Of a stretch of 9,850 nt of DNA, positions 1,315 through 5,287 are shown piece after piece. The notes under the pieces were generated by a model. The model did no database searches. It had not been told where the DNA came from and saw nothing but the letters and a program-made list of their open reading frames with translations. The stretch lies in contig JACPSX010000005.1 of the NCBI GenBank assembly GCA_016193065.1, positions 1-9,850 of the forward strand, given 5' to 3'. The first letter of the stretch is position 1, and each line of letters begins with the position of its first letter. This stretch comes from Candidatus Tectimicrobiota bacterium. GTDB taxonomy: Bacteria; JACPSX01. Both the position numbers and the translations under genes were made by a program.

Positions 1315-2151
1315 TTAACCCACTTCGAAGACCACTTCCAGTTCCACCGCCGACCCGGCCGGAAGCTCATTGACACCCACTGCAATGCGCGCGTGCTTGC
1401 CCTGATCCTGGAGAAGCTCCACGAAGAGGTCTGAGGCTCCGTTGACCACGGACGGCTGACCTGAGAAGCCTTCGGCGCTACGGACAAACCCGGCAACTCG
1501 AACGACCCGGCGAATCTTCCCCAGGTCGCCCACAGCCTGCTTGGCGGCGCTCAGACTGCTCAGCGCGCAGAGACGGGCGGCCTGATAGCCTTCCTCGGGA
1601 GTCAGGTCAGCGCCGATCTTGCCCGTGTATTTCAACTGCCCTTGAATCCGGGGGATTTGTCCCGAGATGAAGAGAAGGCCCTGAGAAAGGAGCGCGGGGA
1701 GATAGTTGCCCACAGGTTTGGACGGTTCGGGGAGTTCCAGACCCAGGGCCTTCAGCCGTTCTTCTACGGGAGATCCCTTGGAGAACCGCTCCTTCAAGAT
1801 GATGACCCGCTCGTGGGTTCCTTCTCCGATCTTCTCCTTTTCGTTGTAGGCTTCCACCGCCAAGGACAGGCGGCGGCCCGAGATAGCGGTGAGAGTAGAC
1901 TTGGCGGTGACCTTCATGCCGACGGGGGTGGCGGCCAGGTGACTGACGTTGACCTTGACCCCCACGGACCCCTCCCCGGGTTCCAGGTAAGAAGCCAGCA
2001 ACCGGTTGGAGGCCTGCTCCATGAGTCCGATCATGGATGGGGTGGAGAACAGGGAGGTTGCTGTGGGCCCCAGGTGGGTAATCCCCATCTCGGGGGTGGT
2101 CGTGACCGTGACTTCCGCTGAGATTCCAGGGACAAAGCCTTCCTTGACCAA
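1315..2151 (-). CDS. FlK-like acyl-CoA thioesterase fused to a RidA/YjgF-like domain
   Basis: The protein is 278 residues from a TTG start, chosen because GAGGAGG lies 6 bases upstream and because the longer in-frame ATG would lie inside the preceding gene. Residues 1 to about 123 form a hot-dog thioesterase of the fluoroacetyl-CoA thioesterase (FlK) type. T37 (in STPSM), E45 (in LMEQA) and H71 (in VSHLAATP) keep the 8- and 26-residue spacings of the FlK triad Thr42/Glu50/His76. Residues from about 130 to 278 form a complete RidA-superfamily domain, nearest the Atu1372-like subgroup, opening EERLKALGLELP and containing FISGQIP, VVNGASDLF and HARIAVGV. R255 sits where RidA imine deaminases hold their catalytic arginine. 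The short linker contains no stop or start signal, so this is one polypeptide. It is co-transcribed behind the VOC gene, 16 bases after its stop. The substrate is unknown; hydrolysis of a short activated acyl-CoA coupled to handling of an enamine or imine is inference. Confidence 0.88.
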   Translation of the reverse strand: MVKEGFVPGISAEVTVTTTPEMGITHLGPTATSLFSTPSMIGLMEQASNRLLASYLEPGEGSVGVKVNVSHLAATPVGMKVTAKSTLTAISGRRLSLAVEAYNEKEKIGEGTHERVIILKERFSKGSPVEERLKALGLELPEPSKPVGNYLPALLSQGLLFISGQIPRIQGQLKYTGKIGADLTPEEGYQAARLCALSSLSAAKQAVGDLGKIRRVVRVAGFVRSAEGFSGQPSVVNGASDLFVELLQDQGKHARIAVGVNELPAGSAVELEVVFEVG

Positions 2152-2157
2152 GGGATT

Positions 2158-2164
2158 CCTCCTC
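2158..2164 (-). promoter_or_regulatory. Strong ribosome binding site that sets a TTG start
   Basis: On the minus strand GAGGAGG is followed by AATCCC and then TTG (2151-2149). The match to anti-Shine-Dalgarno is near perfect and the spacing is ideal. There is no ATG or GTG at the right distance. The TTG start also gives the thioesterase domain its normal short N-terminus. Confidence 0.8.
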
Positions 2165-2167
2165 AGA

Positions 2168-2605
2168 TTACTTGAGTTTATAGCCGCCGCCCGTGTTGCT
2201 GACCAGCTCAATGACGTTCCCATCCGGATCTTCCAGGTAGAGGTAGTGGTCCAGATCCTCCTTGTGGGTATCGGGCCCCTTCAGGATCTTGACCCCATTT
2301 TCCTTGAGGAAAACTGCAGCCCGGTCCACGTCTTCCGGTGTGGCCAGACGGAAGGCGACGTGATTCATTCCGGCGGTTTTGCGGTAGTCGGGCGAGACCT
2401 TGTGGGGGACCTTGTACAGGGCAATGTCATGGTAGGCAAGCTGGCGCTCGTCCTCTCGATACTCCCCGTAGTTCATCCAAACGATCTGCCCTTCGGCCCT
2501 CGCCGATACTTTGAGTCCCAGAAGTTCGGTGTAGAATTTTTCCGACTTCTCAAGGTCCGTCACATTGATGTTCACGTGAGCCAGGCCCGTGATCCGAATT
2601 GCCAT
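2168..2605 (-). CDS. VOC-superfamily (glyoxalase/extradiol dioxygenase fold) protein
   Basis: This is a 145-residue protein of two beta-alpha-beta-beta-beta modules, the usual length for a single-chain VOC protein. Module one opens GLAHVNINVTDLEKSEKFYTE and module two opens MNHVAFRL and ends LEDPDGNVIELV. H10, H82 and E133 occupy the metal-ligand positions of the 2-His-1-carboxylate VOC enzymes, so a divalent-metal enzyme (lyase, isomerase, epimerase or dioxygenase) is more likely than a metal-free binding protein. The start at 2605 is the second of two adjacent ATGs and stands 6 bases after AGGAGG. A longer frame to 2695 is possible but would run through the promoter. It is the first gene of an operon with the thioesterase-RidA fusion. 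The specific reaction cannot be read from the sequence. Confidence 0.88.
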   Translation of the reverse strand: MAIRITGLAHVNINVTDLEKSEKFYTELLGLKVSARAEGQIVWMNYGEYREDERQLAYHDIALYKVPHKVSPDYRKTAGMNHVAFRLATPEDVDRAAVFLKENGVKILKGPDTHKEDLDHYLYLEDPDGNVIELVSNTGGGYKLK

Positions 2606-3034: not shown

Positions 3035-5287
3035 ATGGCCGAAGTAGTCAAAGACAGAAAATCAGCCTTTGTGAGCACGGTAAAAAAGGACGAAGGGGGA
3101 ATCCCCGGCGCCAAGCTCGGTGATCTCCTGATGCGCGAAGGTCTGATTACCAAGAGCCAGATTGAGGAAGCCACCCAATATCAGAAAAAACATGGAGGCC
3201 GGATCGGCTCCATCCTCCTCCTTCTGGGCTACATCGACGAAGACACCGTCCCCACGGTCTTGAGCCGCAGCCACGGCTATCCTGTCATTGACATGAGCCA
3301 GCAAAAAATAGAGGACCGCGTTCTGGCTCTGGTCCCGTACAGCATGGCGAAAGAGTACTTCCTGTTCCCGATCAGCAGCGCGAACAACGTCCTGCAAGTG
3401 GCCATGGCTGACCCTACAGACAGCAGTACCGTGGAAGAAGTTCAAATGAAGGTCCGGCTCAGCGTGAAAGCCGGGGTGTGCGCGGAAAAGCAGATCCTGG
3501 AAGCCTACAAGAAATACTACCAGGTCAGTGACGAAGAGATCGCCGGCTTCACTCCCAAAGTTGAAGAAATGGAAGAGGCCGTCAGCATCGACACCATTGA
3601 TGACTTTGGCAGCCTGGTGTCGGAAGCGGCGGATACTTTCACCGTCGTCGATGAATCCGCCGCTGGGAAGATGGAGGGGGATCAGTACTCGGCCAGCGAT
3701 GCCCCCATTGTGAAGCTGGTCAACGGGATCCTGATCCGGGCCATCAAGGAAGGGGCCAGCGATATCCACATTGAGCCGTTTGAAACGGCCTTCTACGTCC
3801 GCTATCGGAAGGACGGGGAGCTCCACAAGGCGATGAACCTCCCCTTGCAGATTAAGAACGCGATGACTTCGCGCATCAAGATTATGTCCAATCTGAATAT
3901 CTCCGAGCGCCGGGTCCCTCAGGACGGCCGGATCAAAATGACCTTGGGCAAGGGCAAGGCCGTCGACTTCCGGGTTTCCACCCTGCCCACGTTGTTCGGG
4001 GAATCGATCGTCATCCGGATCCTCGACAAGTCCAACCTGAACGTGGACCTCACCAAACTCGGGTTTACCAAGGCAGGCTTCGAAAGATTTCAAAAGACCA
4101 TTACCCGGCCCTACGGACTGATCCTGGTGACCGGCCCCACGGGGAGCGGGAAGACGACGACACTGTATTCAGCCCTCCACGCCCTGAACCGGGTGGATAC
4201 GAAGCTTCTGACTGCGGAAGATCCCGTGGAATTTAACTTCCGGGGAATTAACCAGGTGCTGATCCGAGAGGATATCGGGCTCACGTTTGCCGCGGCCTTG
4301 CGCTCGTTCCTCCGGCAAGATCCGGACGTCATCATGGTCGGTGAGATCCGCGACATTGAAACGGGGGAAATTGCCATCAAGGCGGCCATGACTGGGCACA
4401 TGGTGCTCAGCACCTTGCACACCAACGACTGCGCCTCGACGATCGGGCGCCTGATTGACATGGGCATCCCCGGGTACATGGTGGCATCTGCCGTCAGCAT
4501 GGTTCTGGCCCAGAGGCTGCTGCGCCGCATCTGCACCAAATGCAAGATGCCCGTCACCAAGATCAGCGCGGCTCTTCTCAAGGAAGCAGGCTTCTCGCCG
4601 AACGAGTTTTCCCAACTGCGGCTCTACACGGGGAAAGGCTGCCCGGAGTGCAGCAACGGTTACAAGGGACGGGTTGCCCTCTATGAGATCATGGAAGTGA
4701 CGGAGAACGTTAAACAGGCGATCACATCCGCTGTTCCCGAAAGCCAGCTCCGCAAGATCGCCATGAAAGACGGGATGCTGACCCTGCGCCAGGAAGGACT
4801 GCAGAAGGTCCGGGAAGGAATCACGACTCTCGAAGAGGTCATGGCCAAGACGGTCAAGGAAAAGGAGATGCTTCCCGCTTACCTGCTGAATCCGGATGAG
4901 CAGGTCTTCGAGGACGGCGATCTAATCATTAAAGAAGGGAACACGGACAAGAACTTCTACAAACTCATCCAGGGCTGTCTCGTGGTTACCAAAAACGGGA
5001 TTGTGGTGGGAGAGATCAGCCAGCCCGGGGAATACTTCGGAGAGATGAGCGCCCTCACCAACGAGCCCCGCACGGCAACCATCCGCTCCAAGGGCAAGAG
5101 CATCGTCAAGCTCTTCCCCGGAGATAAGCTGGCCGAGGTACTGGAGAAGTACCCGGAGATTGCCACCCACATCGTGACCACCCTGGCCAAGCGCCTCAAT
5201 GAAGCCAACAACCGCATCCTGGCCGGCCAAAACGGTGGGGACAGGGGCCTGGAAGCGCTGGAGCAGAAGGCCGCCGCCCTCTCTTAA
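3035..5287 (+). CDS. pilB: PilB/GspE-family assembly ATPase with N-terminal MshEN-type domain and C-terminal cyclic-nucleotide-binding domain
   Basis: A 750-residue secretion/pilus ATPase that would power type IV pilin assembly or type II secretion at the inner-membrane base. Residues 27-79 form an MshEN domain: two 24-residue motifs (27-50 and 56-79) with a 5-residue spacer, each with LG or IG at the start and G-[LY]-I in the middle. This is the layout that binds c-di-GMP in MshE; K27 replaces the usual arginine while Q50 and R56 are kept. An acidic linker (about 165-220) follows. The motor has GASDIHIEP (240-248), Walker A GPTGSGKT (367-374), an Asp box (391-400), Walker B VIMVGEIRD with E437, a His box STLHTND (459-465) and zinc cysteines C500, C503, C536 and C539. 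Beyond the usual PilB end, residues about 618-725 form a CAP_ED domain with cassette GEYFGEMSAL and EPRTATI, including E670 and R679. The gene stands alone, without pilC, pilT or pilins. AGGAG lies a wide 12 bases before the ATG, so translation may be weak or the start slightly off. The choice between pilB and gspE is uncertain. Confidence 0.92.
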   Translation: MAEVVKDRKSAFVSTVKKDEGGIPGAKLGDLLMREGLITKSQIEEATQYQKKHGGRIGSILLLLGYIDEDTVPTVLSRSHGYPVIDMSQQKIEDRVLALVPYSMAKEYFLFPISSANNVLQVAMADPTDSSTVEEVQMKVRLSVKAGVCAEKQILEAYKKYYQVSDEEIAGFTPKVEEMEEAVSIDTIDDFGSLVSEAADTFTVVDESAAGKMEGDQYSASDAPIVKLVNGILIRAIKEGASDIHIEPFETAFYVRYRKDGELHKAMNLPLQIKNAMTSRIKIMSNLNISERRVPQDGRIKMTLGKGKAVDFRVSTLPTLFGESIVIRILDKSNLNVDLTKLGFTKAGFERFQKTITRPYGLILVTGPTGSGKTTTLYSALHALNRVDTKLLTAEDPVEFNFRGINQVLIREDIGLTFAAALRSFLRQDPDVIMVGEIRDIETGEIAIKAAMTGHMVLSTLHTNDCASTIGRLIDMGIPGYMVASAVSMVLAQRLLRRICTKCKMPVTKISAALLKEAGFSPNEFSQLRLYTGKGCPECSNGYKGRVALYEIMEVTENVKQAITSAVPESQLRKIAMKDGMLTLRQEGLQKVREGITTLEEVMAKTVKEKEMLPAYLLNPDEQVFEDGDLIIKEGNTDKNFYKLIQGCLVVTKNGIVVGEISQPGEYFGEMSALTNEPRTATIRSKGKSIVKLFPGDKLAEVLEKYPEIATHIVTTLAKRLNEANNRILAGQNGGDRGLEALEQKAAALS

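Follow-up and report, generated by a model that had tools for sequence, protein, structure and literature searches.

The window (the whole stretch of DNA analyzed, 9,850 bases, equal to the entire contig C232) encodes a PilB-type motor ATPase that carries a CNB (CAP_ED/cNMP_binding) domain behind its motor core. This protein, PilB-CNB, is a real, conserved and apparently undescribed regulatory variant of PilB, and the same fusion is found in 21 complete relatives, 54-67% identical, from three other phylum-level groups and the Desulfobulbaceae. A small signaling molecule may switch this pilus motor directly. The reading that we favor, and judge on sequence grounds to be rather probable, is a PilB that responds chiefly to cAMP (or cGMP) via its putative CNB sensor, with a doubtful c-di-GMP input. 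The source is a draft genome of 2.9 Mb (86% complete, 294 contigs), the sole representative of its phylum among the genomes compared.

Pfam and NCBIfam domain searches bear out the gene coordinates and domain limits given in the initial annotation of this DNA (Table 1). The MshEN, T2SSE and cNMP_binding matches are all over the Pfam cut-offs, and the N-terminal start agrees with that of the relatives. The gene is solitary, being divergent from an upstream glyoxalase gene and convergent with downstream thiamine genes, of which ThiD-ThiN is its immediate neighbor. Two other features of the window deserve mention. A TPP riboswitch (RF00059, 9415-9521, minus strand, 70.5 bits) heads a thiamine-precursor operon for an ABC ATPase, a permease, an NMT1/THI5-like binding protein and the ThiD-ThiN fusion, and an unusual-looking gene at 1315-2223 (minus strand) joins a fluoroacetyl-CoA-thioesterase-type (FlK) domain to a YjgF/RidA domain.

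Table 1. Positions of the pilB-CNB gene and its parts in the window
Feature	Position	Strand	Remarks
PilB-CNB gene	3035..5287	+	750 aa, ATG start
MshEN_N, residues 27-79	3113..3271	+	two 24-residue motifs, 5-residue spacer
MshEN_C (PF05157), residues 80-166	3272..3532	+	Pfam MshEN, E 1e-15
T2SSE motor core, residues 220-603	3692..4843	+	Pfam, E 6e-137
Walker A GPTGSGKT, residues 367-374	4133..4156	+	
Zinc tetracysteine C500/C503/C536/C539	4532..4651	+	invariant alignment columns
Motor-CNB junction, residues 604-617	4844..4885	+	short, conserved, 80% consensus identity
CNB (CAP_ED / cNMP_binding) domain, residues 618-725	4886..5209	+	
Phosphate-binding cassette FGEMSALTNEPRTAT, residues 668-682	5036..5080	+	E670, R679 invariant 22/22

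The complete PilB/GspE core that had been annotated is borne out by the T2SSE match and by the NCBIfam PilB equivalog TIGR02538, which aligns over profile positions 1-563 of 564 with 734.7 bits (cut-off 675.65); the protein scores under the cut-off of the GspE NCBIfam model. Key residues of Walker A, the Asp box, the His box, Walker B and the zinc tetracysteine are invariant in an 11-sequence alignment. The closest solved structures for residues 24-609 are the Geobacter and Myxococcus PilB proteins, and the best PDB match is Geobacter PilB (E 2e-171). Elsewhere, the window genome encodes PilT, a second PilT/PilU-like ATPase and a PilC-like platform protein (C61), as well as a second PilB/GspE/TfpB-like ATPase, truncated at a contig end, whose surroundings include a GspH-type pseudopilin and a PilY1 domain (C294). 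Since this second ATPase is incomplete and falls under the PilB cut-off, the fused protein ranks as the best candidate for PilB in this genome. In two relatives pilM adjoins pilB-CNB as the next gene, in keeping with a T4P role. By its sequence, the window protein is thus its organism's PilB, the type IV-A extension ATPase. It would power pilus extension, as homology suggests together with the PilT, PilU-like, PilC-like and PilY1 genes at other loci of the genome. The interval between the PilU-like and pilC-like genes of this genome encodes a protein of 231 aa (L060:5534-6229) in which inspection by eye shows a zinc-ribbon-like CxxC pair near the N-terminus and a receiver-like C-terminal part.

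The C-terminal CAP_ED domain, initially placed at about residues 618-725, was recovered as cNMP_binding (PF00027) at residues 623-706 (E 4e-15; 56.1 bits against a gathering cut-off of 27.5). Its cassette follows the motif FGE...R-x-A (FGEMSALTNEPRTA); E670 and R679 stand where they had been reported and are invariant in the 22 aligned proteins, and Ala681 is kept in 20 of them. Sequence and fold matches of the domain are cAMP- or cGMP-bound structures of PKA-R, PKG, HCN, SthK and CRP. In an AlphaFold2 model of residues 597-750 the barrel has pLDDT values mostly of 80-90, and confidence is lower in the region of the C-terminal helix; Foldseek matched this model to cAMP-bound CNB structures with a probability of 1.00, the TM-scores of the overlays being moderate (0.5-0.6). 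The full-length AlphaFold model (mean pLDDT 58, CNB region <50) is too poor to place the CNB on the hexamer. Thr680 was considered as a marker of ligand selectivity and was not decisive, as Thr or Ser at this place is found in both cAMP- and cGMP-binding domains.

The domain is as well conserved as the motor. Mean consensus identity over the 22 proteins is 0.77 for both the CNB and the core, 0.80 for the junction, 0.67 for MshEN_N and 0.55 for MshEN_C. In all pairwise comparisons to the window, the first and second codon positions of the CNB diverge far less than the third, which indicates that the domain is under (strong) purifying selection. ATPase and CNB distances are correlated (r=0.72), a value reached in none of 2000 permutations. 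A junction this short and conserved favors a mechanical coupling of the CNB to the motor over a loose tether. The window CNB is 74% like the CNBs of the G062 phylum versus 66% like the CNB of the core's nearest relative. Its acquisition by recombination from the G062 phylum was considered and rejected, given the zero-length branch of the window CNB and the long branches of two relatives, L042 (1603-3933) and L043 (7599-9827). In the G062 phylum, pilB-CNB is usually followed by a conserved set of genes for a TolC-like outer membrane protein, a sigma-54 activator and a PreATP-grasp protein (L045:8263-12341 and equivalents).

It could be argued that the CNB binds no ligand and serves as a structural or docking module for localization, partner binding or hexamer stabilization, as in non-binding CRP-fold proteins. 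No ligand is known for many of the CNB domains of bacteria, and a junction as conserved as the CNB itself is consistent with a structural role. Moreover, in L042 and L043, the relatives most similar to the window protein over its full length, the cassette Ala681 is replaced by Phe and the CNB is fast-evolving, so that ligand binding may be lost there. However, non-binding CRP-fold proteins usually lose the residues that contact ribose and phosphate, whereas these contacts (E670 and R679) are kept in all 22 aligned members of the present family, and Ala681 in all but two of them. We therefore regard a ligand-free CNB as unlikely, if still worth serious consideration, and retain a cyclic mononucleotide sensor as the preferred reading of this domain.

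At the other end of the protein, the MshE-related model NF053729 'c-di-GMP_motif' matches residues 27-78 with a score of 57.8 (cut-off 38). The 24+5+24 layout that had been annotated at residues 27-79 thus exists, but the residues that contact c-di-GMP are only half retained. In MshEN, the ligand is contacted by R, L, G, L, L and Q in each of two motifs; a change of Gly11 abolishes binding, changes of Leu10 and Leu58 weaken it 36-fold and 10-fold, respectively, and XpsE lost c-di-GMP binding via changes that include L29R and Q61V (PMC5013675). The corresponding residues of the window protein are K L G I T Q / R I G V L S, and 6 of the 12 contacts that characterize MshEN c-di-GMP receptors are identical to those of V. 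cholerae MshE. The changes are R9->K, L25->I, L29->T, L39->I, L54->V and Q61->S, of which L29->T and Q61->S are not conservative; Leu29 is Glu in most fused relatives. Across the fused family 4-9 of the 12 contacts are kept, compared to 10-11 in six Gammaproteobacterial MshE-type control proteins. Such degeneracy makes c-di-GMP binding doubtful for the window protein and unlikely for many of its relatives. In other PilBs, the MshEN-type domain is presumed to be oriented toward the stator complex (PMC11656802). In PilB-CNB, the N-terminal MshEN probably serves mainly as a docking module whose c-di-GMP binding is weak or lost.

The initial annotation had gone further and proposed a motor with two inputs, sensing c-di-GMP at the MshEN end and cAMP or cGMP at the CNB end. 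Its CNB fusion and cassette residues stand; the integration of two messengers is put into question by the degenerate MshEN_N and appears improbable to us. The 24+5+24 layout and the NF053729 score speak for it, as do the conservative nature of several changes (R->K, L->I, L->V), the retention of Gly11, Gly40, Gln32 and Arg38, the 9 of 12 key contacts found in L042, and the GGDEF proteins of all 14 carriers tested. On the other hand, besides the low contact counts, Leu29->Thr (mostly Glu in the relatives) would break the stack of Leu25/29/39 on one guanine, and Gln61->Ser would lose a ribose/phosphate contact (PMC5013675). It may be added that L042 and L043, with Phe at position 681 and fast-evolving CNBs, have better-kept MshEN motifs (9/12 and 8/12 of the key residues), a hint that the two inputs are inversely related.

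At least 25 public genomes encode the MshEN-T2SSE-CNB architecture. The open literature searched yielded no description of a PilB or GspE with a CNB, and the sole paper there containing both 'PilB' and 'cyclic nucleotide-binding domain' applies the latter term to another protein. This agrees with the early hunch that the architecture was uncharacterized and might exist in databases. Carriers account for 21 of the 24 genomes of one phylum, and also occur in two more phyla represented by one or two genomes each and in three Desulfobulbaceae MAGs. The fused CNB was detected at E<=1e-25 in only 6 of 386 sampled genomes, all within phyla already found. Of 19 genomes searched with the PilB model, 15 gave a match over the cut-off, in every case a fused frame of 730-777 aa; no unfused protein passed the PilB cut-off in the genomes tested with this model, and the three non-carriers of the 24-genome phylum had no match over it. 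Plasmid matches end near residue 611 in ten listed of 738 records, with no fused copy among the matches listed. In a tree built from the motor core only, a branch with SH-aLRT 100 separates the 22 fused proteins from 20 unfused paralogs, 7 other PilB-like proteins and the second ATPase of the window genome. This single clade fits one fusion event followed by descent or transfer, two routes that the tree does not separate. On this reading, an ancestral PilB gained the CNB in a single event, immediately behind its last motor helix and via the short conserved junction. An assembly or annotation artefact, a concern raised from the outset by the possibility of a local assembly error and by a short contig in an incomplete draft genome, is dismissed by the occurrence of the same fusion and junction in 21 complete and independent copies, one of them on a 2.2-Mb contig, and has a negligible probability.

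The window genome encodes three class III cyclase proteins, the third (C215) being the most divergent; inspection by eye places in each of them the first motif's metal-binding Asp and a Lys of the adenylate-cyclase type. The same genome encodes six GGDEF domains. Class III cyclases are present in 14 of the 14 carriers tested. Their co-occurrence was rejected as strong evidence for a cyclic-nucleotide input: 66 of 98 sampled genomes have such cyclases and most carriers are related, so that it is weak evidence and shows only that the ligand can be made. As a first guess, the ligand of the CNB would be cAMP, with cGMP less likely. We envisage that class III cyclases would produce cAMP, which would occupy the phosphate-binding cassettes of the six CNBs, each located behind a C-terminal domain of the hexamer. 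As the C-terminal helix of the CNB closes, the packing of the CNB on the motor C-terminal domain would change, and with it the ATPase cycle, and pilus extension would be switched on or off. For PilB-CNB we infer the ligand, its binding, its allosteric action on the motor and the direction of that action.

By extension, a clade of pilus motors in at least five bacterial lineages might be gated directly by cAMP or cGMP through the CNB, the ancestral N-terminal c-di-GMP input having decayed. We offer this tentatively, as a plausible proposal that falls short of being probable. If true, the second messenger would have been swapped on one and the same motor. Pilus motors of Vibrio, Myxococcus, Clostridium and Thermus can sense c-di-GMP directly; a PilB under the direct control of a classical cyclic mononucleotide would have an input of a new kind. 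With intact, degenerate and A681F members, the fused clade represents a natural experiment on messenger binding versus motor activity.

The window protein shares its N-terminal 24+5+24 layout with Vibrio cholerae MshE (PDB 5htl; E 1e-16), from which it differs in having half of the 12 key contacts replaced. Xanthomonas XpsE/GspE has a similarly degenerate MshEN, including the loss of Leu29 and Gln61 (PMC5013675). It is without both motif glycines (G11, G40), whereas the window protein keeps both. To our knowledge, XpsE carries no CNB. The Geobacter (PDB 5tsg/6olj) and Myxococcus PilB proteins have the same MshEN-N2D-CTD motor, with Walker A/B, His box and zinc tetracysteine; however, solved PilBs align to the window protein only until about residue 609, and the latter adds about 140 residues with the CNB. 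In turn, the CNBs of PKA-R, PKG, HCN, SthK and CRP have the same beta-barrel and phosphate-binding cassette with its Glu and Arg, but they are attached to a kinase, a channel or a DNA-binding domain, while the CNB of the window protein is attached to a pilus motor ATPase.
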